A stretch of DNA of 36,262 bases from a virus, in the IMG/VR virus record IMGVR_UViG_3300017786_001935, positions 1-36,262 of that record; one strand, given 5' to 3'. Positions 4,588 through 35,606 of this stretch are shown here, piece after piece. The notes beneath the pieces were generated by a model. That model saw only the letters and a program-made list of their open reading frames with translations, searched no databases and was not told where the DNA came from. Made by a program: the position numbers and the translations under genes. Each line of letters begins with the position of its first letter. The stretch's first letter is position 1.

Positions 4588-4648
4588 GTTTAAAAAATAT
4601 AGATTGGTTGAACAATACAAAGGTACTCTTATAGATGTATATGTGTAA
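4559..4648 (+). CDS. Possible 29-aa basic peptide between FecR and cyclase genes
   Basis: The ATG lies inside the 3' end of the FecR gene, 8 bases after GGGGG. The peptide is basic (MSLKSLKAIKFKKYRLVEQY...) and its TAA overlaps the ATG of the cyclase (TAATG), the classic coupled arrangement used elsewhere in this operon. The peptide could be real, or the frame could serve only to carry ribosomes to the cyclase start, which otherwise lacks a good Shine-Dalgarno sequence. No family is recognised. Confidence 0.4.
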   Translation: MSLKSLKAIKFKKYRLVEQYKGTLIDVYV

Positions 4649-6417
4649 TGAATAAAATACTATCACTAATACTTATAGTACTCAGCATACCTTTATTCAT
4701 AGGAGTTATACCTTTAGAAGTTTTAAAAATGCGTACCTTTGACGCTTTCATAGAAACACCTGAACAATCTAATAACTTTGTAATTCTAAATATAACTGAA
4801 GAAGATGTAGAACAAGAAGGTGGTTATCCATTACCAAGACAAAGATTAGCTGAAATAACAGATGAGATTATGGCAAAGGGAGCTATAGGTATTGCCTTTG
4901 TTATTGCATTTCCACAAGCAGATAGAATGGGTGGTGATGAATCTTTTGCTTTAGCTTTAAGTAAATATCCAACTGTAATAGCCATGTTCCCTGATAAGAG
5001 TGGTACATATCCCAAGACAACAGGTACAGTTATAAAAGGAGAAGAAAAAGGTGGTATATTAGTTGAAGGTGTAAAAGAAAATCTAACTATATTATCTAAT
5101 AATAGTCTGCAGGGTTTAGCTTTTGCGCCTACTGAAGCAGACCAACTTGTACGCAGGATTCCTCTTTTAATTCAAACGCCTGATGGTTGGTCAGCTTCTC
5201 TTGGTACTCAAATTTATAAATCAATATTTGGAGTCAAGACATACATTATCACTACAAATGATAATGGTATCCAAGAAATAGCTATACGAGGAATACCACC
5301 AGTAAAAACTGATTCTCTTGGTAGAAAGTGGATTTCATGGGTTCAAACCCAACAAACTGATTTACAAGAAATGAATGTCGCAGGTCGTTTCGTTTTAGTA
5401 GGTGTGACTGCAAGTGGTGTAATGCCACAAATTGCAACGCCAGTAGGTCTCCTAGAGCCACATAAAATACAAGCAGCTTTAGCAGAGTCTATTTTAATTC
5501 AAGACAGTCCATATATACCTGACTACGCAATAGCTTTAGAGATAGCCATATTTATAGGCACAGGGCTTATCCTAGTTGCGCTCCTTAACTTTTTTGGTAT
5601 ATGGGGTACTTTGATGTCCTTTGGGGTTCTTTTTGCTGCCACAGCAATCTATGGAGTTTGGACAATTAGAAGTGGTTTATTAATAGATGTGTCTTGGACA
5701 CTCATGTCCCAATTTATTATTGCGTCATGTGGATTCTTTTTAAAATATAGAACTCAATATTTATTAAGACAAGAAATAAAAAAACAATTTGAACATTATA
5801 TAGACCCAAGACAAGTAAAAAGACTACAAGATAATCCAAGTCTTTTAAAACTAGGTGGTGAAAAAAAATATGCCACATTCTTATTCACAGATGTTCGTGG
5901 ATTTACTGCTTTATCAGAATCATTAGAGCCTGAACAAGTAGCATACATAATGAATGAAGCCTTGACTGCTCAACAAGAAGCCGTGCAGAAACATGGTGGA
6001 ATGGTTGATAAATATATAGGGGACGCAATGATGGCTATATTCAATGCGCCTTTAGATTTAGCCAATCATCAACATGCAGCTATGATGTGCGCTCTTGATA
6101 TACAAAAAAATATGGAAGAATTAAATGAAAAGTTTAGGTCCATGAAACTAGCTCCAGTTGCTATTGGCATAGGTATCAATACAGGTTTTGCAGTAATTGG
6201 CAATATGGGTAGCTCCAGTAGATTTGACTACACGGCTATAGGTGATGCCGTAAATGTTGCTGCAAGGCTAGAAAGTGGTACTAAAGCAGCAGGTGTTGAC
6301 CTCCTTATTGGTCAAGAAACTCAAAATGGGTTATCATACGAACTAAAGCCACATGGCGAAATTGAAGCCAAAGGCAAAAGTCAAAAATTAATGGTTTACA
6401 CATGGGAACAAAATTAG
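4648..6417 (+). CDS. CHASE2-domain class III adenylate/guanylate cyclase, 589 aa
   Basis: N-terminal membrane anchor (4-24), then an extracytoplasmic CHASE2 sensor (about 28-290), three membrane spans (about 298-318, 321-340, 348-366) and a cytoplasmic class III cyclase domain (about 405-589). Catalytic signatures are complete: metal-binding Asp415 in FTDVRGFT and Asp459 in DKYIGDAMMAIF; base-selecting Lys455 and Asp527 (RFDYTAIGD), which favour ATP and so cAMP; and transition-state Asn536 and Arg540 in NVAARLE. Length and order match bacterial CHASE2 cyclases, so this looks functional rather than a remnant. The neighbouring FecR protein would share the periplasm with the CHASE2 domain. The 3' end overlaps the i-spanin gene by 16 bases. 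The natural ligand cannot be told from sequence. Confidence 0.93.
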   Translation: MNKILSLILIVLSIPLFIGVIPLEVLKMRTFDAFIETPEQSNNFVILNITEEDVEQEGGYPLPRQRLAEITDEIMAKGAIGIAFVIAFPQADRMGGDESFALALSKYPTVIAMFPDKSGTYPKTTGTVIKGEEKGGILVEGVKENLTILSNNSLQGLAFAPTEADQLVRRIPLLIQTPDGWSASLGTQIYKSIFGVKTYIITTNDNGIQEIAIRGIPPVKTDSLGRKWISWVQTQQTDLQEMNVAGRFVLVGVTASGVMPQIATPVGLLEPHKIQAALAESILIQDSPYIPDYAIALEIAIFIGTGLILVALLNFFGIWGTLMSFGVLFAATAIYGVWTIRSGLLIDVSWTLMSQFIIASCGFFLKYRTQYLLRQEIKKQFEHYIDPRQVKRLQDNPSLLKLGGEKKYATFLFTDVRGFTALSESLEPEQVAYIMNEALTAQQEAVQKHGGMVDKYIGDAMMAIFNAPLDLANHQHAAMMCALDIQKNMEELNEKFRSMKLAPVAIGIGINTGFAVIGNMGSSSRFDYTAIGDAVNVAARLESGTKAAGVDLLIGQETQNGLSYELKPHGEIEAKGKSQKLMVYTWEQN

Positions 6418-9519: not shown

Positions 9520-9550
9520 ATTATAGTTAGTATAGTTTTTTTTGCAACTA
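9520..9550 (-). promoter_or_regulatory. Promoter and dyad operator (site A) of the XRE gene
   Basis: Reading leftward: -35 TTGCAA (9542-9547), a 16-base spacer that includes an A-tract, and -10 TATAAT (9520-9525), about 25 bases before the XRE ATG. The dyad TAGTT-N8-AACTA (9533-9550) covers the -35 box, so a bound protein would block RNA polymerase. Confidence 0.75.
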
Positions 9551-9562
9551 ATATTGATAGTC

Positions 9563-9739
9563 TTACTCCTGCTCAAAGCCATCAAACCAAACACCTGCTT
9601 CACGAGTATCATCTCGTTGGCAATGCTCTTGGGCTTCTGCTCTCGTTAATCCACTTTTAATAATTCTGTGGTGGTCTGTATGGTTATTATCAAAACAGAA
9701 CCTTATTATCTTATAGTTGGCACATTCACATTCACTCAT
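9563..9739 (-). CDS. Small Cys/His-rich phage protein, 58 aa
   Basis: GGAG lies 8 bases before the ATG, and the start overlaps the upstream stop codon (ATGA). The product reads MSECECANYKIIRFCFDNNH with TDHHRIIKSGLTRAEAQEHC and an end WFDGFEQE. From memory this RFxFDxxHxDHxRxIKxGLTxxEAQxHC...WFDG pattern is a widespread small phage protein of unknown function. The Cys/His content would allow metal binding, but that is not shown. The gene ends just upstream of the XRE promoter. Confidence 0.75.
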   Translation of the reverse strand: MSECECANYKIIRFCFDNNHTDHHRIIKSGLTRAEAQEHCQRDDTREAGVWFDGFEQE

Positions 9740-9936
9740 TTGTATCTCTCCATAGGTATAAGTCTTTTAGTGGCAACCTTAACCATAATATTTAGTTCTT
9801 CATCAAAGAACCATGATTTTGTATTTGATTCTCTAGTAAATTTGTTGCCTACAACTTCTAAAGTATCTTCTACCTGTCCTGCATAAGTACCAAATATTGT
9901 GGAGTTTCTAAGTTTACAGAATTGTCCGTGTTCCAT
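9736..9936 (-). CDS. Hypothetical small protein, 66 aa
   Basis: Middle gene of a three-gene leftward operon. The ATG overlaps the upstream stop (TAATG) and its own stop overlaps the next start. The sequence (FCKLRNSTIFGTYAGQVEDT ... SWFFDEELNIMVKVATKRL) suggests a small beta-rich protein. No family is recognised. Confidence 0.6.
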   Translation of the reverse strand: MEHGQFCKLRNSTIFGTYAGQVEDTLEVVGNKFTRESNTKSWFFDEELNIMVKVATKRLIPMERYK

Positions 9937-10130
9937 TACTTAGACCTCAATACTTCGCCATCTTTAACGGCTGCTAAAAAACCTGCTTCGTCTCTAAGCA
10001 AAGTAATACCACCTACAGTTTCTACAGAGTTTGTAAAACTTGGCTTATAAAAAGGTTTGTTGTTTTCTTTACAGTACAGCTTATAGATTCTTGCTGCGTT
10101 GCCTATAGTACTTAGTTCGTTCGTTGTCAT
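9936..10130 (-). CDS. Hypothetical small protein, 64 aa
   Basis: First gene behind the site B promoter, with AAGGAG 7 bases before the ATG. It has an N-terminal helix (NELSTIGNAARIYKLYCKE) and a beta-like C-terminal half (VGGITLLRDEAGFLAAVKDG). No family is recognised. Placement directly behind a strong operator-controlled promoter suggests an early-expressed host-takeover or regulatory role, by position only. Confidence 0.6.
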   Translation of the reverse strand: MTTNELSTIGNAARIYKLYCKENNKPFYKPSFTNSVETVGGITLLRDEAGFLAAVKDGEVLRSK

Positions 10131-10136
10131 AAATTT

Positions 10137-10207
10137 TCTCCTTTATATTTATCAATTTATACATCTATTATGACACATATAGTTATTATTGCAACTACTA
10201 TATTAAA
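10137..10207 (-). repeat. Promoter-operator-leader cassette, copy 1 (site B)
   Basis: Leftward promoter: -35 TTGCAA (10189-10194), 16-base spacer, -10 CATAAT (10167-10172). The exact dyad TAGTT-N8-AACTA occupies 10180-10197 and covers the -35. The whole stretch, including the untranslated leader with TTGATAAATATAA and the GGAG ribosome site, is nearly identical to 19452-19523. The two copies drive unrelated genes, so promoter and leader were duplicated or exchanged as a unit. Confidence 0.8.
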
Positions 10208-10214
10208 TTAATAT

Positions 10215-10559
10215 CTAAAAGGGTAAATCGTCATCTTGGTCAAAGTAAAACTTTGCGCCTTCAAACTGTGCCTTTGCATATTGCTGACCTATGTCTGCAG
10301 GTAAACCATAATGCTCAAATAAATTCTTTTCTGTACCATGCTTCGTGTGTAGCTCCATGTGATGTTTTTGACATAATGGTATGCAGTTCTCGTCTCCTGC
10401 CTTTAGGGACATTCCTCGTTTGCCTGAATAGGGTTTTAACAAGTGGTGCGCTTCTGTACAACCATTGCAAGTACTAGGTCCATTCTTTTGCCCAATAAGA
10501 CATGCCAACCTTTTGATAAAGCCAACATGTCTTTTATCCCTATATTGTTTATTAGCCAT
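10215..10559 (-). CDS. HNH-type nuclease with SSB-like acidic C-terminal tip, 114 aa
   Basis: Zinc/HNH layout: CNGC (31-34), HH (38-39), ENC...C (57-63), HH (66-67) and His71, as in small phage recombination nucleases (DUF968/HNH type). The end of the protein is DDDLPF, nearly the DDDIPF tip by which bacterial SSB recruits repair enzymes; in this operon such tips recur. The start overlaps the upstream stop by one base (TAATG). A role in recombination or replication-intermediate processing follows from the ERF and SSB-like neighbours. The HNH call is reasonable but distant. Confidence 0.7.
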   Translation of the reverse strand: MANKQYRDKRHVGFIKRLACLIGQKNGPSTCNGCTEAHHLLKPYSGKRGMSLKAGDENCIPLCQKHHMELHTKHGTEKNLFEHYGLPADIGQQYAKAQFEGAKFYFDQDDDLPF

Positions 10560-11002
10560 TAAAACTTAATGTCTGAATCCACAATATTTTCTTTAGGAAA
10601 TGGTGCTTCATTGGAATCATCATTGACTTCATCTATTTCTGTAAAGCCAAGACTTGAATAAGGGACACCACTTTCAGACTCTTTAGCCCATATTCCTAGT
10701 TTCCATTTCTTCATAGCCAATTCACCATTAGCGTCTTTTTGACCCCATAAAGGCGATTTAACTCTACCACCCATATCAGGACTTTTTGCGTTCAACTTAT
10801 CCTCAGGTTTATTAATATGTAATAGACCCATTGATACATACATTTCGTGTTGAACTTTACCTTCGTTATTTTGTTTTTCAATAACCATGCCATAGAACTT
10901 TGTGTCTTCTAATTGAAAGCTGCCCTTACGAACAACTTTTGCCTTATCTTCAAGCCACATAGACCCATAACCATTATTGTCAAACTTATTGTCATTATCC
11001 AT
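10559..11002 (-). CDS. Putative ssDNA-binding protein (OB/DUF736-like), 147 aa
   Basis: Beta-rich core: YGSMWLEDKAKVVRKGSFQL ... FYGMVIEKQ ... KKWKLGIWAKES ... YSSLGFTEI. It resembles phage proteins with DUF736-like or OB-type strands that act as ssDNA-binding proteins. A disordered acidic C terminus ends IVDSDIKF, an SSB-like acidic-aromatic tip. It lies between the winged-helix/ERF/exonuclease genes and the HNH nuclease, where many phages carry SSB. No canonical SSB signature was seen, so the function is inferred from fold pattern, tail and neighbours. Confidence 0.55.
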   Translation of the reverse strand: MDNDNKFDNNGYGSMWLEDKAKVVRKGSFQLEDTKFYGMVIEKQNNEGKVQHEMYVSMGLLHINKPEDKLNAKSPDMGGRVKSPLWGQKDANGELAMKKWKLGIWAKESESGVPYSSLGFTEIDEVNDDSNEAPFPKENIVDSDIKF

Positions 11003-11270
11003 TTGATTTCTCCTTATTGATAATTAGTTTATATTTCCAACCTTTGCTGCTGTCAATCCTCTTTTTCTCTACAACTTCACCTGTTCTTGGCAAGTTGTAT
11101 TTGCTTCTGCAATAATCTTTCCTAAGATTCCTGATAGCAGCGCTTATAGTTGGCTCTCCATAGAAAGTACCAGTCTTTTCTTTTATTACATTTCGTAAGT
11201 CCCAAAAAGTCCAGTACCTCCCATCTCTCATACATAAAAAGACACAATCGTCTAAAGTCAATTTAGGCAT
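10995..11270 (-). CDS. Small winged-helix-like DNA-binding protein, 91 aa
   Basis: Helices LDDCVFLCMRDGRYWTFWDL and GEPTISAAIRNLRKD, followed by a basic hairpin VVEKKRIDSSKGWKYKLI, form a plausible winged helix with recognition helix 38-50. It overlaps the SSB-like gene by 8 bases and starts at the ERF stop. In phage recombination operons such small winged-helix proteins are common but rarely characterised. It could be a transcription factor or a recombination accessory protein. Confidence 0.6.
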   Translation of the reverse strand: MPKLTLDDCVFLCMRDGRYWTFWDLRNVIKEKTGTFYGEPTISAAIRNLRKDYCRSKYNLPRTGEVVEKKRIDSSKGWKYKLIINKEKSNG

Positions 11271-11710
11271 TAGAATTTTGAGTCAGTCCTTGGTGTCGCT
11301 CTTGTATTAGATTTAGGCGCTTCTGTAACGGCTGCTGTTGCCAAGTTAGCGTCATCATCATCTGCACCTAAACCACATGCAGTCATAAGACTGTATCTTC
11401 TTGCATAGGTCAGCGAAGACCCAAAAGCATGAGGATTCAATTTAATTGCAGGTACATATACAGGACCACATTTTAATTCTCCACCATGTCCATATAATAT
11501 GGTTTCTACGATACAACCTGTTTCGTTGTAGCTAGTATTTTGGTGAAACAAGATTCCATTCTTATTCAATGGTTTCTTAACAGCTTCAATAACGGCATTT
11601 AATGTCGCATATCCACTACTATATAAAGGATTAACTGCATTTTTAGATACAGCGTCCATTTCGCTCTGTGCCTTTATTAGGGCATTTATCAATTCATTAT
11701 TTAATTTCAT
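11270..11710 (-). CDS. ERF-family single-strand annealing protein, 146 aa
   Basis: ERF-type recombinase that anneals complementary single strands. Family features: N-terminal LINALIKAQSEMDAVSKNAV, the NPLYSSGYATLNAVIEAVKK block (27-46), GGELKCGPV, and the hallmark GSSLTYARRYSLMTACGLGADDDDAN (about 97-122). The Ala/Thr-rich tail is short and ends DSKF. The gene directly follows the PD-(D/E)XK nuclease, giving the exonuclease plus annealase pair of a lambda Red-like system. At 146 aa it is compact compared with P22 Erf (about 200 aa). Confidence 0.9.
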   Translation of the reverse strand: MKLNNELINALIKAQSEMDAVSKNAVNPLYSSGYATLNAVIEAVKKPLNKNGILFHQNTSYNETGCIVETILYGHGGELKCGPVYVPAIKLNPHAFGSSLTYARRYSLMTACGLGADDDDANLATAAVTEAPKSNTRATPRTDSKF

Positions 11711-11718
11711 GTTATCTC

Positions 11719-12507
11719 CTATTTAATATCAAATAATTTTTTAGCACCTTCAATTTCTGTTGGTGTCCAAAAGTCGTAGAAATTATCATTGCTTAGATTT
11801 GGTTCTAAACAACTCAAATAACATACCTCCTCAATATCATCACTAAGGGATAGAAGCCTACCCATCTTATTGACGATTCTCTCAATATCTCCAACATGCT
11901 TTTGCACATCATTAATATCAAAACTTATTAATTCTTGTATCTTTGTAGTGGAATAAACATAATCAACCACAGGTGGTTTATCTGTTGCTAGTGCGTAAAA
12001 AGACAATTGCAAACAATAGTCAGCACTTACATCTTTTGGTCTTACGCTTGTAGTTTTAAGGTCTCTAACACAATCATCATATAAGAGGTCAACAATACCT
12101 CTAATTACAACTGGACTATCTGCAAACTCATACTCTACCCATTCTTGCGCTGCAATAGGCACACCTAACTTTTTATATAGGGGTATCATTTCTGCTAAAA
12201 CATCATGGACTCTATTCTGCTTTTTATTGTGCATGTCCCAGTCGTAGCCGTAAGGTTTTTTTTCTTGTATTTTTTCAAATTCTTCCATAGCCTTTTCAAC
12301 ACATTGGTCAAAGGTGGAATCTACCATTACTGCATGTGTTATGCCTTGCTCTATAGCATTGCCATAAGTAAAAGCAGGTTTATAAAGTCTATCTCTATAA
12401 CCTGCAATATTGGTCAACCATCTAGCAGGACTTCTTCGGAATTTGTTGAGTTGCGTAGGGGATACATACTTAATATCATGTGCTTCAAAGGGATTATTAC
12501 TTTTCAA
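11719..12507 (-). CDS. PD-(D/E)XK exonuclease (RecB/Cas4-like), 262 aa
   Basis: Nuclease-superfamily motifs in order: GNAIEQGITHAV with Glu53 and His58 (motif I region), VVIRGIVDLL with Asp140, VRDLKTT with Asp149 and Lys151, and YCLQLSFYALAT with Gln167. Together with ERF it probably resects double-stranded ends to make single strands for annealing. The start is TTG, set by AAGGAG seven bases upstream; no ATG is nearby in frame. It is the first gene of the leftward recombination operon behind a TTGCAA-N16-TATAAT promoter. Confidence 0.85.
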   Translation of the reverse strand: MKSNNPFEAHDIKYVSPTQLNKFRRSPARWLTNIAGYRDRLYKPAFTYGNAIEQGITHAVMVDSTFDQCVEKAMEEFEKIQEKKPYGYDWDMHNKKQNRVHDVLAEMIPLYKKLGVPIAAQEWVEYEFADSPVVIRGIVDLLYDDCVRDLKTTSVRPKDVSADYCLQLSFYALATDKPPVVDYVYSTTKIQELISFDINDVQKHVGDIERIVNKMGRLLSLSDDIEEVCYLSCLEPNLSNDNFYDFWTPTEIEGAKKLFDIK

Positions 12508-12530
12508 TTTATGCTCCTTGTTTCAGTTTA

Positions 12531-12566
12531 TGTTTCCTATTATAACTATTTTAGACATGTTTGCAA
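12531..12566 (-). promoter_or_regulatory. Leftward promoter of the exonuclease-ERF operon
   Basis: -35 TTGCAA (12561-12566), 16-base spacer, perfect -10 TATAAT (12539-12544). The -35 lies inside dyad copy D. A second degenerate dyad-like stretch (TAGTTATAATAGG...) covers the -10 at 12531-12548. It is divergent from the replication promoter. Confidence 0.7.
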
Positions 12567-12602
12567 TAACAACTTTACAACAAAGAACTGACATTATATA
12601 TT
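12558..12602 (+). promoter_or_regulatory. Rightward replication promoter with operator copy D
   Basis: -35 TTTACA (12574-12579), 17-base spacer, -10 TATATT (12597-12602). The operator-like sequence TGTTTGCAATAACAACTT (12558-12575), a degenerate copy of the 18-bp dyad, abuts the -35 and also holds the divergent leftward -35. One bound protein could therefore control recombination and replication genes together. Transcription would start at about 12609-12610, almost at the ATG of the next gene. Confidence 0.6.
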
Positions 12603-12611
12603 GTCTTACTT

Positions 12612-13178
12612 ATGAGTATTCAAGGACTAACATGGTGTATAAAAAAAGAATGTGATACACCAACATCTAAATTGGTTCTATTTATTCTTTCTAATTACGC
12701 TGACGAAAATAATAGCTGCTACCCTAGTGAAAAACATCTCGCCAAAATTGTAGGTATTTCTGATAGACAAGTAAGACGCTGTTTAGCGAACCTTGTGGAT
12801 AAGGGGTACATAACTATAGAGGAGAGGAGGGGTACATCTAATAGATATTATCTAGGGGTGGACGCTGAAGTCCTAACACTTAGGACGCCCACTTCCACCA
12901 ATACTAAAGACAATACTAAAGATATATATACAAAAGCGTTTGAGATTTTTTGGAAAAGTTATCCACGAAAGATTGGAAAATATGCTGCTGCAAAATCCTT
13001 CAAGAAAGAATGTAAGAATATTGATAAAAATATATTAATTGAAAAAGCTAAGATGTTTGCAGACCAGTCGCAATCTACAGAAGAAACTTTTATACCTCAT
13101 GCTGCTACTTGGTTAAACCAAAGGCGATATGAAGATGTGAAAAAGCGAAAGAGGTCTTTAAACAATTTAGCAGGATAG
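12612..13178 (+). CDS. Replication initiator-like protein with HTH domain, 188 aa
   Basis: The N-terminal helix-turn-helix_36 type domain (1-85) has MSIQGLTWCIKKECDTPTSK, NYADENNSCYPSEKHLAKI and the recognition region SDRQVRRCLANLVDKGYI. A C-terminal domain (107-180, AFEIFWKSYPRKIGKYAAAK ... FIPHAATWLNQRRY) is typical of phage replication proteins that bind the origin and load helicase (lambda O/DnaT-like set). It is followed 10 bases later by the primase-helicase, its probable partner. No Shine-Dalgarno sequence precedes the ATG and the promoter puts the transcript start next to it, so the mRNA may be leaderless. Confidence 0.8.
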   Translation: MSIQGLTWCIKKECDTPTSKLVLFILSNYADENNSCYPSEKHLAKIVGISDRQVRRCLANLVDKGYITIEERRGTSNRYYLGVDAEVLTLRTPTSTNTKDNTKDIYTKAFEIFWKSYPRKIGKYAAAKSFKKECKNIDKNILIEKAKMFADQSQSTEETFIPHAATWLNQRRYEDVKKRKRSLNNLAG

Positions 13179-13188
13179 GAGAAATAAT

Positions 13189-14910
13189 ATGAGTATGATA
13201 GATATTCTGTATAGCGAAAACATAAAAGTAAAACATCACGAGCAAGGCAATCAAAAGATTAAATGTCCCCAATGCCAACCCCCACATGACCACAGAGATA
13301 ATCCATTAAGCGTAACAATTGAAAATGACCATGCTGTTTGGAACTGTCATCATTGTGGCTATAGTGGTACTACAATGCGAGGTAATTCTACAAACTTTGT
13401 GGCAAGACCTAAGAAGGTTTTTGTAGCACCTAAGCTACCAACAGACCCAAAGAGACCTAAGACATTATATGACTGGTTTAATGAAAGAGGGATAAGTAAG
13501 GAAACTGTAGACAAGAAATCTATATATGTAGACCAAGAAAAGTGGATTGCTTTGCCCTATAAAGACGAAACAAAAGCTACTGTAAATATTAAATTTAGAA
13601 CTAGAAGCAAACAGTTTAAGCAAACACCAAATGCCAAAAGAACTTTGTATAACTATGACTTGGCACATAAGCAAGAAGAAGTAATTTTTGTTGAAGGCGA
13701 GATTGATGTTTTGACCTTGATAGAGTGTGGTTTTGATAATGTTGTATCTTTACCTGATGGAGCGCCAAAGGAAGCAAAGTTTAATGAGAAGGACGCTAGG
13801 TTTACTGCTTTAGAGAATTGCCCATTACCAAATTTAAAAAAGGTAATTTTATTTACAGATAATGATGAAGCAGGAAAAGCACTACATGCAGAACTCTTAC
13901 ATAGATTTGGTAAAGACTTATGTTGGTATGTTGATTACCCTAAAGATTGTAAGGACGCAAACGAGATACTGAATAAGCATGGTCCACAGACACTTAAACA
14001 AGTGGTAAAAAGTGCGAGTCCATATCCAGTAGATGGTTTATATAGAGCAAACCAATATTATGGCGCTGTCATGGATTTATATGATGGCAACTATGCAAAG
14101 CCTATAAATATTGGCTACAAAGACCTTGATGAAATATATAATATTATGAAAGGTACATTCCATGTAGTAACAGGTATTCCTAATCATGGTAAGTCAAGTT
14201 TCCTTGACCAAGTATTGCTTAAAGTGGCTGCAGACCACAGATGGAAATATGCTGTATTTTCTCCTGAACATTCAACGCAAATGCACCTACGCAGACTTCT
14301 ACAAATGCACCTAGAGAAAAGTTTTGATATAGATTTCAATAATAGAATGACAAAAGAAGAACTGCAAAAAGGACTAGACTGGATTAACGAATATTTTTAT
14401 TTTATAGAAACGAAAGATACTGTACCTGACATTGATTATATTTTAGATGTAGCAAAATCTAGTGTGTTGAAATATGGAGTCAACGGAATTGTTATTGACC
14501 CCTATAATGAAGTATCAGCAAAACGAACTGGTAATGCTAGGGAAGATGAACATATAAGAGACTTTATATCTAAATGCAAGAGATTTGCTAGGGTGCATGA
14601 TTGCGTAGTTTGGATAGTAGCGCACCCTACTAAGCTACCAAAGAATAACGATGGCTCTTATGCAGCACCAACGGCTTACGACATTAGTGGTGCAAGTCAT
14701 TGGTCTAATCAAAGTGATGTGATTCTTACAGTACATAGGGACTTTGATGATAACTCTATTGAGGTTATTACTAGGAAGATACGAGAACAAGGTTTGTATG
14801 GTAAGATAGGAAGTGCTAAGTTTAATTACGATAACAGCAAGAAAATTTTTGTTGAAGCCAAAGAAACTGATTGGGACATTAATGAAGTACATCATTGGTC
14901 TGATAACTAG
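13189..14910 (+). CDS. T7 gp4-like DNA primase-helicase, 573 aa
   Basis: Zinc-binding primase domain with CPQC (26-29) and CHHC (53-56). TOPRIM domain with Glu170 (FVEGEID) and TDNDEAG (223-229). RecA-like hexameric helicase with Walker A GIPNHGKSS (329-337), Walker B IVID (434-437) and the sensor WIVAHPTK (476-482), followed by ISGASHWSNQSDVIL. It unwinds DNA 5'-3' and makes primers at the replication fork. AGGAG lies 8 bases before the ATG. Length and order match the full-length bifunctional form. No DNA polymerase gene is recognisable in the window, so the phage probably uses the host polymerase. Confidence 0.95.
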   Translation: MSMIDILYSENIKVKHHEQGNQKIKCPQCQPPHDHRDNPLSVTIENDHAVWNCHHCGYSGTTMRGNSTNFVARPKKVFVAPKLPTDPKRPKTLYDWFNERGISKETVDKKSIYVDQEKWIALPYKDETKATVNIKFRTRSKQFKQTPNAKRTLYNYDLAHKQEEVIFVEGEIDVLTLIECGFDNVVSLPDGAPKEAKFNEKDARFTALENCPLPNLKKVILFTDNDEAGKALHAELLHRFGKDLCWYVDYPKDCKDANEILNKHGPQTLKQVVKSASPYPVDGLYRANQYYGAVMDLYDGNYAKPINIGYKDLDEIYNIMKGTFHVVTGIPNHGKSSFLDQVLLKVAADHRWKYAVFSPEHSTQMHLRRLLQMHLEKSFDIDFNNRMTKEELQKGLDWINEYFYFIETKDTVPDIDYILDVAKSSVLKYGVNGIVIDPYNEVSAKRTGNAREDEHIRDFISKCKRFARVHDCVVWIVAHPTKLPKNNDGSYAAPTAYDISGASHWSNQSDVILTVHRDFDDNSIEVITRKIREQGLYGKIGSAKFNYDNSKKIFVEAKETDWDINEVHHWSDN

Positions 14911-14918
14911 GGAGTTAT

Positions 14919-15536
14919 ATGTCTAAAGAATTAAAAACAAATGAATACGATATTCAGCTTGTATCTATTTTTGATATAAAGCCATATAAGAACAATCCAC
15001 GACAAGTCAATCAAACTGCAATAAACCAAGTCAAAAAATCTATTCAACAAAATGGATTCACAAATGTAATTATCGTTGATAAGAACATGGAAATTATCGC
15101 AGGACATACAAGATTAGAAGCTGCAAAACAACTCAACATGATGGAGTTGCCAGTCTTTATTGCTAAAGACCTTGATGATGAACAAGCAAGGCGTCTCCGA
15201 CTTTTAGATAATAGACTTGTTGAACTTACTCCTTGGGATATAGAAAAACTTGTACAAGAAATTGAAGCCACAGAATTAGATGACGACATTGAAGCATTGT
15301 TTGAACCTTTAATGAATGAAGATTTAAGCGAATTTGACCTTAGCGATGATACTTATACACCTGAGGAACCAACTTATAATCAAGCAATAATCCAATATGT
15401 GATGATATTTGATAACGAAAGACAACAATCTCTTTGGTATTCTTTTTTAAGTTCAATGCAAGAAATGTATCCTGACGAAGAAACCCACGCTGCAAGGTTA
15501 GAAAAATTTATAGAATCTAAATCATGGGCAAAGTAG
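14919..15536 (+). CDS. ParB-like nuclease-domain protein, 205 aa
   Basis: The N-terminal ParB/Srx-fold domain (about 12-105) has the strand VSIFDIKPYKNNPRQV, the helix INQVKKSIQQNGF and the motif AGHTRLEAAK (61-70). Phage ParB-like proteins of this sort are linked to DNA modification or nicking rather than partition; here no ParA is present. The C-terminal half is acidic (EIEATELDDDIEALFE ...). The next gene overlaps by 13 bases and encodes a PP-loop enzyme, so the two are a functional pair. CTPase or nuclease activity cannot be told from the sequence. Confidence 0.85.
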   Translation: MSKELKTNEYDIQLVSIFDIKPYKNNPRQVNQTAINQVKKSIQQNGFTNVIIVDKNMEIIAGHTRLEAAKQLNMMELPVFIAKDLDDEQARRLRLLDNRLVELTPWDIEKLVQEIEATELDDDIEALFEPLMNEDLSEFDLSDDTYTPEEPTYNQAIIQYVMIFDNERQQSLWYSFLSSMQEMYPDEETHAARLEKFIESKSWAK

Positions 15537-16594
15537 CCAAAAAAATACGAGTTTATATAGATACAGATGTCTATGACGAAGCCATAGCTAGAATAAACCA
15601 TGTTTACGATACCTTTGACACAATAGTCGTGATGTTTAGTGGTGGCAAAGATAGCCTTGCTGCTTTACATCTTTGCAAAGAGGTAGCAAATGCTCGTGGT
15701 ATTAAAAAGGTTAATGTCGTGTTTAGAGACGAAGAATTAATACCTAATTCAGTAATAGACTTCGTTAATAAATATCGTGAAATGGATTGGGTAGAAATGC
15801 TTTACTTTGCAGTCCCTTTACATTCTCAAAAATATGTCTTGGGTAGAACTGAATCTTATGTGCAATGGGATAAAAAACGAAAACACATTAGACCTCTACC
15901 TGAACATGCTATTACTACAAAAGATGATGACCCAACGATATATACCCAAGATACAATGGATATGTTTACTGCAAGTTTTTACAAAGGAAAGATTGCCTTT
16001 GTCAACGGCATTAGAGCAAGTGAAAGTCTTATGAGATATGCAGCTTGTATGAATAAGATTAATGAAAACTATATTAATTCTGTGAAGGCAAATGTACCAA
16101 ATGTTAAATTTTGTAAGGTTGTCTTTGATTGGGAAGAAAATGATGTCTTTAAATATTTTATGGAAAAAGAAATAGAGTATTGCAAAATCTATGATTGGCA
16201 AATGTGGAACGGAGACCAATTTAGAGTTGCAACACCAATTCACCAAGAAGCAGCAAAAAGATTTAATAAATTAGCAACACTTGACCCTGTACTCTATGAA
16301 CAGACAATAGATATTTTTCCTGAAATGGTCATGCAAGGTTTGTATTACAAAGAGTTCAACAGACAAGGAATAAAAGATAAATACTCTAAGGATATGCAAT
16401 CAGTATTAGCCTATATCAAAGATTACATAACAGACGCCAAACAAAAACATGAAGCCTATAAGATGTTTAAAAAGACTGTCGTTGCAAATAGAAATGACCC
16501 TGCTGCCTATCCTATAGAACATATACTCAACTACTTTATGACTGGTGCTTACAAAAGAGACCTATTACCAATTAACACAACGGAGAAAAAATGA
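15524..16594 (+). CDS. PP-loop PAPS-reductase/IbrA-like (DUF3440-type) protein, 356 aa
   Basis: ATP pyrophosphatase signature SGGKDS (39-44) after TIVVMF, the mark of adenylating PP-loop enzymes (PAPS reductase, DndC, IbrA). The region FVNGIRASESLMRYAACMN and the Cys residues at about 180-210 fit the IbrA/DUF3440 layout. The C-terminal part, with EHILNYFMTGAYKRDLLP near the end, is also typical of IbrA. IbrA is normally paired with a ParB-like IbrB. Here ParB-like genes flank it on both sides. Involvement in a DNA or nucleotide modification chemistry is inference from family and context. Confidence 0.85.
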   Translation: MGKVAKKIRVYIDTDVYDEAIARINHVYDTFDTIVVMFSGGKDSLAALHLCKEVANARGIKKVNVVFRDEELIPNSVIDFVNKYREMDWVEMLYFAVPLHSQKYVLGRTESYVQWDKKRKHIRPLPEHAITTKDDDPTIYTQDTMDMFTASFYKGKIAFVNGIRASESLMRYAACMNKINENYINSVKANVPNVKFCKVVFDWEENDVFKYFMEKEIEYCKIYDWQMWNGDQFRVATPIHQEAAKRFNKLATLDPVLYEQTIDIFPEMVMQGLYYKEFNRQGIKDKYSKDMQSVLAYIKDYITDAKQKHEAYKMFKKTVVANRNDPAAYPIEHILNYFMTGAYKRDLLPINTTEKK

Positions 16595-17115
16595 TAGATG
16601 ACCCAATTAGTAATATTGAGTGGATTGATTGCGAAGATTTAGAAGCCAACGACTATAACCCAAATGTAGTTTTTACACCTGAATTAAAAGCCTTAGAAAA
16701 AAACATCATGGCTTATGGTTGGGTGCAGCCAGTAATATCAACGAAAGATGGAATTATCATAGACGGATTTCATAGAACTATGTTGAGCAGGGAAAGCAAA
16801 ACTTTAAGAGCTAAATATGATGGCAAAGTGCCTTGTGTTGTTTTTGATATACCAAGAGACCAAGCAATGATATTGACTGTTCGCATGAACAGAGCCAAAG
16901 GACAACATGTAGCCGTGCGAATGTCAGAAATGGTAAAAGAGTTAGTAGATGACCATAAATGGGCGCACCAAGATTTAGCAAAAGAATTAGGGGCGTCAAA
17001 AAAAGAAATTGACCTACTGTATCAAGACGGAGTTTTTAAATTTAGAAATATTAAGAACTATAAATACTCAAAAGCATGGTATCCACAATTAGCTGAGGAG
17101 CAAAATGGAACTTAA
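16591..17115 (+). CDS. IbrB-like ParB-domain protein, 174 aa
   Basis: A second ParB-fold domain (about 8-110): WIDCEDLEANDYNPNVV, LEKNIMAYGWVQPV and IIDGFHRTML with Gly59-Phe60-His61-Arg62. A helix-turn-helix follows at about 124-145 (AHQDLAKELGASKKEIDLL). The overlap of four bases with the PP-loop gene (ATGA) implies coupled synthesis. This matches the IbrB partner of IbrA better than the first ParB-like gene does, because of size and the GFHR motif. Its likely job is to target the PP-loop enzyme to DNA or to process the modified product. That is inference. Confidence 0.85.
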   Translation: MIDDPISNIEWIDCEDLEANDYNPNVVFTPELKALEKNIMAYGWVQPVISTKDGIIIDGFHRTMLSRESKTLRAKYDGKVPCVVFDIPRDQAMILTVRMNRAKGQHVAVRMSEMVKELVDDHKWAHQDLAKELGASKKEIDLLYQDGVFKFRNIKNYKYSKAWYPQLAEEQNGT

Positions 17116-17533
17116 AGACCCCATACTAAGTCCTGCACCCATAGAAGTCGTTAGGGGTGATTACAAGCTGCTTGAAGTAGACTTTCAAGATGTAAAACAG
17201 TTTAGTTCAAGAGCGTCTAAAGAAAGAGTCGCTATTAAACCAACAGGCAACACAATATGGTTTCATGTATTTATAAAAAATGAATTAATTGGTTGTTGTG
17301 GTCTATACACAGCACCCAAAAAATGTAGGATAAAGGGTGATTATTTTTTACCTGAATATAGAGGAAAAGGAGCAGGAGATTTCATAACAGAATGCAGACA
17401 TCTAATAGCAAAAGAATTAGATTATGACAAAATTGAAGTCCTTACTTTGCACCCTCACTATTACAAGAAAAAAGGATACACAATTTATAAAGAAAGAACG
17501 CAAGGCGTCTGGGTAGCAGACAAGGAGATTTAG
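17105..17533 (+). CDS. GNAT-fold acetyltransferase, 142 aa
   Basis: The acetyl-CoA binding signature RGKGAG (86-91), preceded by the strand IKGDYFLPEY and followed by helix DFITECRHLIAKE, is the GNAT motif A. The C-terminal YYKKKGYTIYKE (119-130) is the usual GNAT motif B end. The gene overlaps the IbrB-like gene by 11 bases with GAGGAG in front. GNAT proteins in such phage clusters include Mom-type DNA modifiers as well as ordinary small-molecule acyltransferases. The tight linkage to ParB and PP-loop genes makes a nucleic-acid substrate plausible but unproven. Confidence 0.85.
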   Translation: MELKDPILSPAPIEVVRGDYKLLEVDFQDVKQFSSRASKERVAIKPTGNTIWFHVFIKNELIGCCGLYTAPKKCRIKGDYFLPEYRGKGAGDFITECRHLIAKELDYDKIEVLTLHPHYYKKKGYTIYKERTQGVWVADKEI

Positions 17534-18010
17534 ATGAATCCATATAACGGCTATAGTGGTAGCCAAAGATTAAAAGCATTAGCTTGGATAAAAAAAGAAT
17601 GGGCAACTGGAACACGACCACCAAAACCCTGTAAGTGTGATGTTTGTGGTCAAACAGAAGGAAATTTAGCTTGGCATAGCGAAGACTACTCTGCTCCTTT
17701 TGGAGATAACATTGGCAGATTTGGATTATGTTATATATGCCACATGATGATTCATTGCAGATATAAAAATAAGGTTGCATGGTCAAACTACAAAAAATAT
17801 ATTGCAAATGGTTTAGCCTACAAGCCATATCACTTTAATGATTGGAATAGTTTTAGGAGAGACTTCCTAATAGACAAAGGTCTAACAAGAGAATATGAAC
17901 AGAATCCCAACGGAAATGTTGAGATTCTTAACCTTATTGAAAAAGGTGTCTATGCAGATGAAGGTAGCGAAGAATACAAAGCACTTATAGGAAGTCCATT
18001 AGCTTTGTAA
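17534..18010 (+). CDS. HNH-like zinc nuclease, 158 aa
   Basis: Zinc-HNH layout with CDVC (35-38), a His48 in the AWHSEDYSAP loop, then CYICH (66-70) and His74 (MMIH). The C-terminal helices (HFNDWNSFRRDFL) resemble the structural tail of phage HNH proteins. AGGAG precedes the ATG, which starts immediately after the GNAT stop codon. It may be a free-standing or homing-type endonuclease, or the nuclease arm of the neighbouring cassette. The 3' end overlaps the convergent minus-strand gene by 61 bases. Confidence 0.75.
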   Translation: MNPYNGYSGSQRLKALAWIKKEWATGTRPPKPCKCDVCGQTEGNLAWHSEDYSAPFGDNIGRFGLCYICHMMIHCRYKNKVAWSNYKKYIANGLAYKPYHFNDWNSFRRDFLIDKGLTREYEQNPNGNVEILNLIEKGVYADEGSEEYKALIGSPLAL

Positions 18011-18360
18011 CCATCTTTAATACAATTGAAATATCCATCACTAGGTAATCCATAACCCTCTCTATTCATTTTATAGAACATTACATCTTCAATTGTTCCG
18101 TCTTCTAATTTTACTGGAAAACATCTTTTGCCATATAAATATGGGTAGCCTTCAAAACCATCTAAAGACTTTTCACATGTATCAGTAATTCTCCATACAA
18201 CTCCATGGACTTCTTTGCCAAACACATTTTCTATATCAGCAACTCCACGAAAAACAAGTTTCCAGTCAGGTAAAGTTATTGGTCCAAGTAGTTTAGCTTT
18301 TGGACATCTATGCTTCATGCCCTCAATATTGGTGTTAGCACCATACGCAAAATATAACAT
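17950..18360 (-). CDS. Gamma-glutamyl-cyclotransferase-like protein, 136 aa
   Basis: GGCT/AIG2 fold: YFAYGANTN (3-11, substrate-binding YGxN loop), HRCPKAKLLGP, WKLVFRGVADIE, GVVWRIT and the catalytic acid Glu70 in LDGFEGYPYLY. Family enzymes cyclise a gamma-glutamyl group to 5-oxoproline, releasing the amine or peptide. It is cotranscribed with an amidoligase, so the two could make and break the same gamma-glutamyl or related amide bond. AAGGAG precedes the ATG. The C terminus ends within the convergent HNH gene. Confidence 0.88.
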   Translation of the reverse strand: MLYFAYGANTNIEGMKHRCPKAKLLGPITLPDWKLVFRGVADIENVFGKEVHGVVWRITDTCEKSLDGFEGYPYLYGKRCFPVKLEDGTIEDVMFYKMNREGYGLPSDGYFNCIKDGYKANGLPISALYSSLPSSA

Positions 18361-18596
18361 CAGTTTATCTCCTTAATAAAACCATATCGTATCAATTCAT
18401 CAACAAAATCATCATAGTCTGCATATAGCAATCTATAACCATAATGTTCCCATATTCGCTTAGCACATGCGTTGACCCATTCGTCTGTGTCTTTGCTATA
18501 TACTTTTGCAAAACTTCTTTTAAACAACTCATGCACTAAGTCAACTTTTGTCGTTGCAAAATACTGGTTGCCATTTGTATCTTTAAATCTAATCAT
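18360..18596 (-). CDS. Hypothetical protein, 78 aa
   Basis: Lies between the amidoligase and GGCT-like genes, with one-base overlaps on both sides, so all three are made from one message. The product has a short beta start (MIRFKDTNGNQYFATT) and a helical body (VDLVHELFKRSF; WVNACAKRIWEHYGYRL; DDFVDELIRYGFIKE). No family is recognised. It might be an acceptor or adaptor for the amidoligase, but nothing beyond position supports that. Confidence 0.6.
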   Translation of the reverse strand: MIRFKDTNGNQYFATTKVDLVHELFKRSFAKVYSKDTDEWVNACAKRIWEHYGYRLLYADYDDFVDELIRYGFIKEIN

Positions 18597-19447
18597 TAAA
18601 TTCTTCCTTGTGTTAATTGTTCTGCATGTCTATCAGCATTAATTTCTTTAAATCTTTTTACATAAAATTTCTTAGTCGCTCTATCAATACCTTTTTTCTT
18701 GTATAAGTTGTCTAAAAAAGTTTTAACTGTATAGGTCTGTGTCGTATCACCTTCTCTAATAGTTTCACCTCTACTATTAATAGCTACTTCAATAATTCCC
18801 ATTGTCAACCTAACCCAGTTGTCAACTTTCCAAGCACTCAATGTTCCACTATGCGCTCTGTTCTCAATAGTTCCTTGTCCCCAGTAATTTTGGAAATTCC
18901 ATTTACCTCGTCCACTAAAATATCTGTCGTTCAATAAACGCCTAATAGTCTTACCATTTAACTGCTTGTAGACTTCAACTAAATCTGTATCAAAACTAAA
19001 ACTATCTCTACAGTATCCATTGTTGCTACCTCGTCTGCTCTCAGGTAATAAGTAGTTAATAGCTTTTTCATACTTAGCCAAAAACTTCATACATCTTCTT
19101 AAAGGCAACTCTTGTTCTCCAGTAATATCAATATGCACATGCACACCAGTACTTCTATTTACCTTTCCATAAATATCACATACATCAAGTATGTCTCTCA
19201 TTTTCTGCATGTCGTTTTCACCTTTTAATATAGGTGTCACTAATTCCATTGCATGTCCGTAGCCACGCTCAGTTCTTATAGAAGTATCGTCTTTAAGTCT
19301 CCATCTATTAGTCTTGTTGCTGTAGTAAGTGCAAAGTATGTCTTGCCCTGTAGCTGCGTATATCTTCCTTGCTAAGTTCTCTTTGCTTATGCTGCAAATA
19401 AACTCAACCTCTATTCCGTATCTTCTTCCATTGTCTAAGTTTGTCAT
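18596..19447 (-). CDS. Amidoligase-family (COOH-NH2 ligase) enzyme, 283 aa
   Basis: Glutamine-synthetase-like amidoligase signatures: YGIEVEF (10-16, metal/ATP site), KDDTSIRTE (52-60), MELVTPIL (67-74), STGVHVHID (99-107) and the arginine-bearing TIENRAHSGTLSAW. The family joins a carboxylate to an amine at ATP expense, and in phages it is often found beside GGCT-like genes. The full length is typical of this phage type. It is the first gene of a leftward operon driven by promoter copy 2, with CGGAG before the ATG. Substrate candidates (glutamyl side chains, cell-wall peptide, a small amine) cannot be distinguished. Confidence 0.9.
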   Translation of the reverse strand: MTNLDNGRRYGIEVEFICSISKENLARKIYAATGQDILCTYYSNKTNRWRLKDDTSIRTERGYGHAMELVTPILKGENDMQKMRDILDVCDIYGKVNRSTGVHVHIDITGEQELPLRRCMKFLAKYEKAINYLLPESRRGSNNGYCRDSFSFDTDLVEVYKQLNGKTIRRLLNDRYFSGRGKWNFQNYWGQGTIENRAHSGTLSAWKVDNWVRLTMGIIEVAINSRGETIREGDTTQTYTVKTFLDNLYKKKGIDRATKKFYVKRFKEINADRHAEQLTQGRI

Positions 19448-19451
19448 TTTA

Positions 19452-19523
19452 TCTCCGTTATATTTATCAACTTATGCACACATTATGGAACATAATAGTT
19501 ATTATTGCAACTACTATATTAAA
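19452..19523 (-). repeat. Promoter-operator-leader cassette, copy 2 (site C)
   Basis: Leftward -35 TTGCAA (19505-19510), 17-base spacer, -10 CATAAT (19482-19487). The exact dyad TAGTT-N8-AACTA is at 19496-19513, with the same 18 bases as copy 1. The leader with TTGATAAATATAA and the GGAG site is shared with 10137-10207. It drives the amidoligase operon. Confidence 0.8.
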
Positions 19524-19550
19524 AAAAGATATATATTTATTTATGGATAA

Positions 19551-19582
19551 TGTTTGTAATAACAACTATCTTATGATAGAGT
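19551..19582 (+). promoter_or_regulatory. Rightward operator copy E and possible promoter
   Basis: TGTTTGTAATAACAACTA (19551-19568) matches operator copy D at 16 of 18 positions and keeps the right half AACTA. A weak promoter reading is TTGTAA (19554-19559), 17 bases, TAGAGT (19577-19582). A TTGACA at 19584 has no matching -10. The site stands between the divergent amidoligase operon and the small-gene operon starting at 19618. Confidence 0.5.
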
Positions 19583-19617
19583 ATTGACATGACTAAAAAT
19601 AACTACAAGGAGATAAC

Positions 19618-19869
19618 ATGAATAATTTAGTTGATAGCTTGGTACTTAGCTCTATGAAGACAAACTTTGTTAGGTTCATTGAGATATATGGATATGACGA
19701 AGCAGATAGAAAAATGGCGTCATTGTTTGGAGACGCTTATAAATGGAAGCAGCATGAACTTTGGCAATGGTTTGACCATGAATACGACAGGGTTCCTCTA
19801 AAATGTTTGGCACTTCCTGACTTGGATATTGGCGAAGCAATTGTCTGTATTAACAAGGGGTTAAAATAA
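19618..19869 (+). CDS. Hypothetical protein, 83 aa
   Basis: A strong AAGGAG lies 7 bases before the ATG. It is the first gene of a rightward run of small genes. The protein is helical (NLVDSLVLSSMKTNFVRFIE, ADRKMASLFGDAYKW) with a Trp-rich middle (HELWQWFDHEYDRVP) and ends DIGEAIVCINKG. No motif is recognised. Position behind operator copy E suggests early expression. Confidence 0.6.
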   Translation: MNNLVDSLVLSSMKTNFVRFIEIYGYDEADRKMASLFGDAYKWKQHELWQWFDHEYDRVPLKCLALPDLDIGEAIVCINKGLK

Positions 19870-20126
19870 TGAAAGAAGTATTAAGCAAAGAACAAGTACG
19901 ACTATTATTAAATCCAGTAATTACGATGACGAAGGAGACATCTTTTGTAGAAGATTACGAAGCAACAGATAGCGAAGCTATGGCAATAATAATTAGTAAA
20001 TACTTTGGTTGGGACGGACTAGCCATTGGAGAAACATTATCTAAATCTTTAGAAGACGCAAATTTTCATGACTTAGGTAGCAAGGTAGACGCATTGCTTG
20101 ACGAGGAGTTTACAAATGACTTGTAA
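19869..20126 (+). CDS. Hypothetical protein, 85 aa
   Basis: The ATG overlaps the preceding stop codon by one base (TAATG), and AGGGG lies upstream. The protein is acidic, with helices around EQVRLLLNPVITM and SEAMAIIISKYFGWDGLAI, and ends SKVDALLDEEFTNDL. No family is recognised. It overlaps the next gene by 11 bases, and its own last codons hold the ribosome binding site (GAGGAG) for that gene. Confidence 0.6.
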   Translation: MKEVLSKEQVRLLLNPVITMTKETSFVEDYEATDSEAMAIIISKYFGWDGLAIGETLSKSLEDANFHDLGSKVDALLDEEFTNDL

Positions 20127-20364
20127 GATGTGTGAGATAGTACAAAGAGAGGGCATATCCAACAAATGTCCTCAATGTATTAGAGATAAAATGTTAGAGA
20201 CTATGCCTTACTTAGCAGCAGTACTTGACGAACTGACACCTAAATACAATATACATTTAAACGAGAGTCTTTTTGACATTCTAAATAGAATGAGTGATGA
20301 AGATAGCGAGAAGTTAAAAATGGCGATGAAGTATCCTCTTGGTAAGTTGAGGATAGTACATTGA
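20116..20364 (+). CDS. Small zinc-ribbon-like protein, 82 aa
   Basis: The ATG at 20116 is preferred over an in-frame TTG at 20098 because GAGGAG lies 7 bases before it. Two CxxC knuckles (Cys3/Cys6 and Cys18/Cys21) form a likely zinc ribbon, followed by an acidic helical region (LETMPYLAAVLDELTPKY, DEDSEKLKMAMKYPL). Small zinc-ribbon proteins in phage early regions often bind RNA polymerase or DNA, but no specific match is recognised. Confidence 0.65.
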   Translation: MTCKMCEIVQREGISNKCPQCIRDKMLETMPYLAAVLDELTPKYNIHLNESLFDILNRMSDEDSEKLKMAMKYPLGKLRIVH

Positions 20365-21455
20365 ACAATATAACTCTACAAAGACTCCTACATGGTTATC
20401 AACTTATTAAAGTTTCTGACTTTAAGAATCCAGTTGACGGAATAACATTTAATGGAGATAACTACCAAGATAGTGAATTAAAGACTCCGTTTGCGAGGGA
20501 GTGGGCAGAAACCTTTACATTACCTAAACATGTATACGACAGGATAAAAGGTGAAAAAACCCACGATGGCACTCCTATTAGTGCAACGATACCACCGAAC
20601 CTAATGAAGCAAGGTATGCAGAAATTAAGTCAAGACATTACACAAAGCATGAAGTTTAGTATTGACTTGTCTAATGAAAATGATTGGCTAACAGAAAAAG
20701 AAATAGAAACAATACTTCCTGAGACACCATTATTTTCACCTTATCCACAAACTTACTTACAGGTCAAAATGCCTGACTTTACAATATGTATTTTATGCAA
20801 AGACCAAAATGTGCAGACGAAAGATACAGGGGAAGATTTATTAAAATTTCAAATGCAAATTATGGAGCATGAAAATAATAGATTTAGTTTAGACCTTAAT
20901 GAATATGACATAGTTTTTCATGGCATGGATAAGACAGCAATTGATGGTAGAACTGGAGATAAAGATTTAGGTGGTTATACCTATTTTATTACTCCTACAT
21001 GGTTTGCTGAAATTACAGATACTCGTGGACATGAGACTAGCTATGCTAAGAGAGAACAATTTAGTAATGAATCTCTTAATGCTTGGGTGCATACCCTACA
21101 GAGTACTTGGTGTACTTTTATGATTTATTTAAACTACCCACAAATAGCAGAACAAAAAAGAATAAAAGGTAGAAATAGTAAAAGTTGGTTTGATATACCT
21201 ATGAGAAAACACACACATTCTGAGTACAGAAATAAACCTGCTTTTGAGCATAAAGAACTCATTATAAAAATGTACGATGATACAAATGTAGCAGACGCTA
21301 ACTCTACAGGCAGGAGCGTAGGTACAGCGTTCCATAGTGTAAGAAAACATATAAGGACTTTAGCTAATGGCAAAAAAACATGGGTTAAGGCGCACTTTAG
21401 AGGAAGTAAAGAGCAAGGCGTAGTAAGTAAGGACTACACATTAAAGACTGGATAG
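20361..21455 (+). CDS. Conserved-looking phage protein of unknown function, 364 aa
   Basis: The start is a TTG that overlaps the previous stop (TTGA), with GAGG 8 bases upstream. It is a large mixed alpha/beta protein with no signal peptide or transmembrane span. The C-terminal segment (about 315-362: GRSVGTAFHSVRKHIRTLAN, KKTWVKAHFRG, GVVSKDYTLK) resembles a basic, probably nucleic-acid-binding tail that I remember at the ends of several phage and plasmid proteins (pattern HxRRxH...G...WV.p..rG....V.K.Y). Its function is unknown. It lies ahead of the RHH regulator gene and may be part of replication or host takeover. Confidence 0.7.
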   Translation: MNNITLQRLLHGYQLIKVSDFKNPVDGITFNGDNYQDSELKTPFAREWAETFTLPKHVYDRIKGEKTHDGTPISATIPPNLMKQGMQKLSQDITQSMKFSIDLSNENDWLTEKEIETILPETPLFSPYPQTYLQVKMPDFTICILCKDQNVQTKDTGEDLLKFQMQIMEHENNRFSLDLNEYDIVFHGMDKTAIDGRTGDKDLGGYTYFITPTWFAEITDTRGHETSYAKREQFSNESLNAWVHTLQSTWCTFMIYLNYPQIAEQKRIKGRNSKSWFDIPMRKHTHSEYRNKPAFEHKELIIKMYDDTNVADANSTGRSVGTAFHSVRKHIRTLANGKKTWVKAHFRGSKEQGVVSKDYTLKTG

Positions 21456-21470
21456 TTATAATAAAAACTA
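21435..21470 (+). promoter_or_regulatory. Promoter and dyad operator (site G) of the RHH gene
   Basis: -35 TACACA (21435-21440, weak), 16-base spacer, perfect -10 TATAAT (21457-21462). The exact dyad TAGTT-N8-AACTA (21453-21470) overlies the -10 and abuts the ribosome binding site AGGAG. A repressor bound here would block initiation of its own gene. Confidence 0.6.
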
Positions 21471-21482
21471 AGGAGAAGTATT

Positions 21483-21650
21483 ATGAAACTAAAATTTGAC
21501 GAAAAGAAACCCAACACGCAAACAGTTCAATTTAGAATAGACCCAAAGACTAACAAAAGACTTACTGCTTTGCGACAACATTATGGACAAACAAATGGCG
21601 TCTTAATAAAACAGATGATTGACCTATGTTATAACGACATAAAAAAATGA
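21483..21650 (+). CDS. Ribbon-helix-helix regulator (Arc/CopG-like), 55 aa
   Basis: The beta strand TVQFRIDPKTNKRLTALRQH (14-33), then a turn and helix GVLIKQMIDLCYND (39-52), is the ribbon-helix-helix pattern. Such proteins dimerise and insert the strand pair into the DNA major groove at short inverted repeats. AGGAG precedes the ATG by seven bases. The gene is fronted by an exact copy of the TAGTT-N8-AACTA dyad, so it is a good candidate for autoregulation and for binding the other copies. Its stop overlaps the next start (ATGA). Confidence 0.75.
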   Translation: MKLKFDEKKPNTQTVQFRIDPKTNKRLTALRQHYGQTNGVLIKQMIDLCYNDIKK

Positions 21651-22132
21651 ATATATTTGTAGTGGAAGAATGTCCTGAGTTAGCAGCAAATGCGCTACCT
21701 GATAAATTGATATGCAAGATGCCATTAGAGTCTGCACAAATGTTATCTACAGCACATAGGTATCTGAGTCCACATGACTATTGCGAGGATAAAGGATTAT
21801 ATAAAAAGGCATACTATAATCACCCCTGCACTAAATGGGCAAGAGCAACACATGAGAACTACAGATGGTTATTGATACATTGGATAACTCTATGTGAACA
21901 GTTTTATATTAGATATGGCAAACAACATAAATCATGGACTGACTTACAGGGTCTTATGATATTTCCTATGAACATTACAGAAGGTGAATTAACTCCGTTT
22001 CCACAAGCTATGCCTAACGAATACAAGAATCCAAATGACGCTGTAGCTGCATATAGAGATTATGTAATCCATGAAAAGCATTACGCAAAGTGGGACAAAG
22101 GTGTGGATAAGCCTGTATGGTGGTCTTGCTAG
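21647..22132 (+). CDS. Conserved-looking marine phage protein, 161 aa
   Basis: No enzyme family is certain. The recognisable layout is VVEECPELAANALPDKLICK, MPLESAQMLSTAHRYL, YNHPCTKWARATHENYRWLL, FPQAMPNEYK and the aromatic end KWDKGVDKPVWW. From memory this 'LPDKH/L..KMPLE..QML....NHPC..W' layout is common in cyanophages and other marine phages as an unassigned protein. There is no signal peptide. It overlaps the RHH gene by four bases, so both should be coexpressed. It ends just before the terminase operator. Confidence 0.7.
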   Translation: MNIFVVEECPELAANALPDKLICKMPLESAQMLSTAHRYLSPHDYCEDKGLYKKAYYNHPCTKWARATHENYRWLLIHWITLCEQFYIRYGKQHKSWTDLQGLMIFPMNITEGELTPFPQAMPNEYKNPNDAVAAYRDYVIHEKHYAKWDKGVDKPVWWSC

Positions 22133-22154
22133 TTTCATAAAAAACTACTATCAT
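22126..22154 (+). promoter_or_regulatory. Promoter and dyad operator (site F) of the terminase/late operon
   Basis: -35 TTGCTA (22126-22131), 17-base spacer, -10 TATCAT (22149-22154). The exact dyad TAGTT-N8-AACTA (22130-22147) fills the spacer. It places the packaging and structural genes under the same control element as the early operons. Confidence 0.6.

Positions 22155-30282: not shown

Positions 30283-35605
<5,323 letters not shown>

Positions 35606-35606
<1 letters not shown>

Follow-up and report, generated by a model that had tools for sequence, protein, structure and literature searches.

An 18-bp dyad, TAGTT-N8-AACTA, recurs at gene-cluster starts in an IMG/VR phage record (IMGVR_UViG_3300017786_001935) and probably serves as an operator at which a repressor encoded by the phage, most likely its 68-aa XRE protein, would block early promoters. 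The whole 36,262-nucleotide stretch analysed is referred to here as the window. The dyad is kept, with the core GTTGCAATAATAAC, at matching promoters of related uncultured phages, across dozens of contigs. In the window, as in relatives G001, G026 and G004, these symmetric putative operators overlap predicted phage promoters, including that of the XRE gene itself. Control of phage genes by repressors and operators is already known, as are repressors with dispersed sites; the regulon proposed here is new. It offers a testable map of the early promoters and their likely controller for phages known here from metagenomic contigs alone, and its operator may help to recognise more phages of this group and to mark promoter starts. 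The sites and the genes concerned are listed below.

9533..9550, minus strand: predicted operator dyad covering the XRE promoter's -35, TAGTTGCAAAAAAAACTA on the gene strand, with TATAAT 16 bp past TTGCAA
9289..9495, minus strand: 68-aa XRE protein (HTH_3), the proposed repressor acting at the dyad, with recognition region GKPNRSMIARFE
10180..10197, minus strand: predicted operator dyad immediately behind the HNH gene, covering the -35 of the promoter for the early leftward operon
9936-10130, minus strand: e64 gene of the early leftward operon, whose promoter carries the 10180 dyad
12531..12548, minus strand: degenerate putative operator at the promoter of the PDDEXK/ERF recombination operon, score 15.7, paired site in G026
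12558..12575, plus strand: degenerate putative operator at the repO/primase promoter, orthologous sites at 19392 in G001 and 20054 in G026
19496..19513, minus strand: predicted operator dyad covering the -35 in the promoter of the amidoligase operon, TTGCAA-N17-CATAAT
19551..19568, plus strand: degenerate putative operator lying 55 bp from 19496 and assigned to the divergent rightward operon (g19618 to g20361)
21453..21470, plus strand: exact dyad containing TATAAT, immediately before the RHH gene
22130..22147, plus strand: exact dyad within the terminase promoter spacer, likely to be a chance match and using the stop codon TAG
18596..19447, minus strand: Amidoligase_2 gene (profile match), first in the putatively controlled operon
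17950-18360, minus strand: GGCT-like ORF in the amidoligase operon, named from sequence

A pattern scan of the window located all five exact copies reported by the first-pass annotation, at 9533-9550, 10180-10197, 19496-19513, 21453-21470 and 22130-22147. Markov simulations of the window predict only 0.05-0.2 such copies per 36 kb, which bears out the earlier judgement that chance is an unlikely source, and a reversed control pattern gave 0 matches. The annotation had also named the frequency of the dyad inside coding sequence as a check: all exact copies are non-coding except for those at 21453 and 22130, each of which overlaps the preceding gene through its TAG stop codon. Among all dyads with 5-bp half-sites and gaps of 0-20, the sole commoner one is GGTCC-N13 (7 copies), which probably belongs to a collagen-like repeat gene. 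The gene in question, at 30279-35606, encodes a collagen-like protein of 1775 aa (Gly-X-Y), likely to be a tail fibre, and is the probable source of these repeats.

With up to two mismatches allowed, the window holds 43 matches against 40 expected, so that mismatch counts cannot separate degenerate copies from chance, and this type of scan was dropped as uninformative. A matrix of promoter sites scores the copies at 12531, 12558 and 19551 at 15.7, 16.3 and 19.6, respectively; since all three were in its training set, their independent support is synteny in relatives, and the first two are weak.

The best copies, read toward the controlled gene, have the form TAG-TTGCAA-TAATAAC-TA, in which the TTGCAA of the left half is the predicted -35. 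On this TTG strand, -10 hexamers peak at offsets 7-8 past the dyad (24% and 19% of 59 oriented sites), reach 12% at one other offset and stay at 0-7% elsewhere; the enrichment was computed over 56 non-redundant sites. Offsets 7-8 correspond to a spacer of 16-17 bp, and the other strand shows no such peak. The overlap with -35 elements proposed by the first-pass annotation is supported. Part of the conservation of the dyad may be that of the -35 hexamer itself. Its second half, however, is conserved although it lies in the spacer, where sigma70 requires no particular sequence, and this points to a bound protein.

Related viral loci were collected by protein scan (27 for primase/helicase, 10 for amidoligase, 55 for XRE and 7 for RHH), and close as well as distant relatives proved to carry dyads at matching promoters, in agreement with the conservation expected of a regulon. 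The dyad lies upstream of the XRE gene in G001, G026 and G004, with the same place and geometry as in the window in the first two. It stands behind the HNH gene in nine records (G001, G026, G046, G042, G039, G041, G038, G052 and G040), heading the early leftward operon in the first two, and between PDDEXK and repO in the close relatives G001, G026, G005 and G006, the two sites of this pair being 27 bp apart both in the window and in G026. In the G004 locus L048, an extra small Cro-like HTH ORF lies between PDDEXK and repO (between 14,931 and 15,476), and the dyad is absent there. The amidoligase promoter carries the dyad in G028, G004, G031, G046, G042, G039, G041, G038, G052, G017 and G040; in G028, G004 and G031 it sits between amidoligase and the divergent rightward operon, and the two sites of the pair are separated by 55 bp in the window and by 56 bp in G028. 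Amidoligase_2 and its GGCT-like neighbour (17950-19447 in the window) stay together in many relatives, often beside a dyad.

In the distant records that were mapped, dyads accompany the amidoligase operon and the divergent g19618-type operon as well as lying behind HNH, and some of these records hold a further dyad-bearing cassette between the portal and capsid genes. Tandem head-to-tail dyads also occur in distant relatives, and of 11 close pairs 10 have a pitch of exactly 18 bp; in the tandem that heads the XRE operon, the second dyad extends to the -10 region. Most of the distant XRE genes show no dyad in the 130 bp upstream, because they lie inside an operon, and in the distant relatives mapped the dyad is found at the head of the XRE operon instead of directly before the gene. 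In three distant loci (L154, L158 and L159), XRE directly follows a g20361 homologue, the position held by RHH in the window.

Outside this group, a near-identity DNA search returned no near-identical named phage, no sequence relative of the XRE protein was found among 50,697 phage records, and all matches of the primase to named phages were below 60% identity. A genome scan with the primase gave only distant relatives, many of them in Alphaproteobacteria, and for this reason no host is assigned. A search of the literature on uncultivated marine phages found nothing relevant on such a motif.

The first-pass annotation had joined six operons into one regulon. The XRE, early, recombination/replication and amidoligase promoters hold their place in it, the RHH operon does so weakly, and the terminase operon drops out. 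Across 15 terS promoters compared, close relatives keep TTGATA-N17-TATGAT without the dyad, and AACTA occupies the spacer of just two promoters, that of the window and that of G031, where the first half differs. The copy at 22130-22147 was rejected as a regulon member since its second half is not conserved across relatives; judged from the sequences, it is probably a chance match. The 21453 copy is a good sequence match with no orthologue in relatives, and membership of the RHH operon is plausible.

The position of that copy, 12 bp ahead of the start codon of RHH, and of dyads just behind RHH in G001, G002 and G003 would fit the 55-aa RHH protein as the regulator that binds the dyad. Relatives of RHH, however, occur in just the seven viral loci mentioned above; dyads are present without an RHH match in G004, in L032 and in 40 kb of the 41-kb record G046, and G019 has RHH without an XRE match or a dyad. 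With so many dyad-bearing phages without it, RHH was rejected as the main regulator, and we consider this explanation unlikely.

The 68-aa XRE protein is the leading candidate for the regulator. It matches PF01381 (HTH_3) with 26.9 bits (curated cut-off 23), and its predicted structure (pLDDT 91) has a lambda-repressor-like, all-helical fold. Structural matches include P22 c2 (Z 7.5-7.6, 54 residues, rmsd 1.8), Aca10 (Z 8.6, rmsd 1.2 over 54 residues) and the controller proteins C.Kpn2I, C.AhdI and C.BclI. To test the link to XRE, a matrix was built from the window plus its two nearest relatives and applied to 34 non-redundant XRE loci kept out of the training. Scores of 8 and above proved too lax a threshold, with about 0.6 matches per kb of background, and gave way to 10 and to a strict core pattern. 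Held-out loci with the PNRSMIAR helix gave 21 matrix matches in 28.7 kb of upstream sequence, in 15 of 21 loci, whereas 100 permuted palindromic matrices gave a mean of 3.4 and a maximum of 10 on the same loci, and the nine held-out loci with other helices gave a single match in 12.2 kb. Over whole records, core dyads per 36 kb numbered 3.04 with PNRSMIAR, 1.44 with PNRSMISRF, 0.41 with another helix and 0.19 where no XRE was found; the core pattern for these counts was defined once the sites had already been seen, and helix class is confounded with phylogenetic distance, so that the link to XRE is an association. The strict core dyad is absent from 10 of 30 PNRSMIAR records, some of which are fragments. 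The proposal that XRE is the regulator is thus supported through association, dyad density following the XRE helix.

In the proposed mechanism, an XRE dimer would bind two GTTGC/GCAAC-like half-sites and cover the -35 hexamer TTGCAA, and in relatives with tandem sites the -10 region too, so that sigma70 RNA polymerase would be shut out by steric repression. XRE would in this way repress its own promoter, a negative feedback by autoregulation, and would also repress the early leftward, recombination/replication, amidoligase and divergent rightward promoters, placing the amidoligase cassette under shared early-promoter control. The predicted outcome is a Cro-like shut-off of early genes rather than lysogeny. 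No tyrosine integrase (PF00589) was detected in 23 records and no serine integrase (PF00239) in 22, which makes such a shut-off more likely than a lysogeny switch, although these records may be fragments and cannot settle the choice. More speculatively, and with rather low probability, this would be a widespread integrase-less lineage in which the dispersed operators of one stand-alone HTH repressor link replication, recombination and the amidoligase cassette, and may give superinfection immunity or plasmid-like persistence without integration.

XRE might bind the dyad and yet activate some promoters instead of repressing them. Single-domain XRE controller (C) proteins, whose fold is that of the matched C.Kpn2I, C.AhdI and C.BclI, include activators, and the tandem sites recall their paired-operator layout; the dyad, however, overlaps the -35 and the spacer, downstream of the usual activator position, and activation appears very unlikely. 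A host regulator hijacked by the phage is a highly improbable alternative: the lack of an assigned host leaves room for a host factor, but dyad density tracks the phage XRE and its recognition helix, and 35 bacterial-genome loci with related primases, from hosts that may be unrelated to that of this phage, gave one match above the cut-off. The least probable reading is that the element is a strong phage -35 with no operator role, as TTGCAA is the -35 at many sites and is retained in G030/G032 with a weaker second half, whereas the AACTA/AACCC half is conserved outside any sigma70 element and tandem dyads recur at exactly 18 bp.

Repression by XRE would place these phages beside several known systems. 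Lambda-type CI/Cro and P22 c2 operators are dyads of 17-18 bp; as here, they overlap -35/-10 elements, occur in tandem (in relatives of the window) and are bound by small HTH proteins of the same fold. In contrast, the sites described here belong to several promoters that lie about 10 kb from one another. Further differences are that no integrase was detected and that XRE is without a CI-like C-terminal domain. Restriction-modification C proteins share the single domain and the fold, but no restriction-modification pair was recognised in the window, and the sites lie at several operons. In mycobacteriophages L5/D29, one repressor acts on related sites found genome-wide and mainly between genes (PMC5712189), a dispersed, mainly intergenic arrangement resembling that of the candidate described here. 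The 24 L5 sites are asymmetric and 13 bp long, with stoperators acting between promoter and gene (PMC5712189), whereas the dyads of the window are symmetric, few and overlap the -35. Aca proteins are likewise stand-alone HTH repressors of phage operons (PMC9410906, PMC9410881; Aca10, PMC9410881; Aca2, PMC8434428), and XRE resembles them in its small size and in its fold match to Aca10. Known Aca proteins control acr-aca operons, whereas several core promoters are concerned here and no acr gene was recognised; the small early ORFs beside XRE (9736-10130) had no PHROG match.

Elsewhere in the window, positions 2838-6417 hold curlin-like repeat, FecR-like and CHASE2/nucleotidyl cyclase-like ORFs, named from sequence. 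The FecR-like and cyclase-like ORFs are kept in several relatives, and such a signalling cassette looks unusual for a phage.
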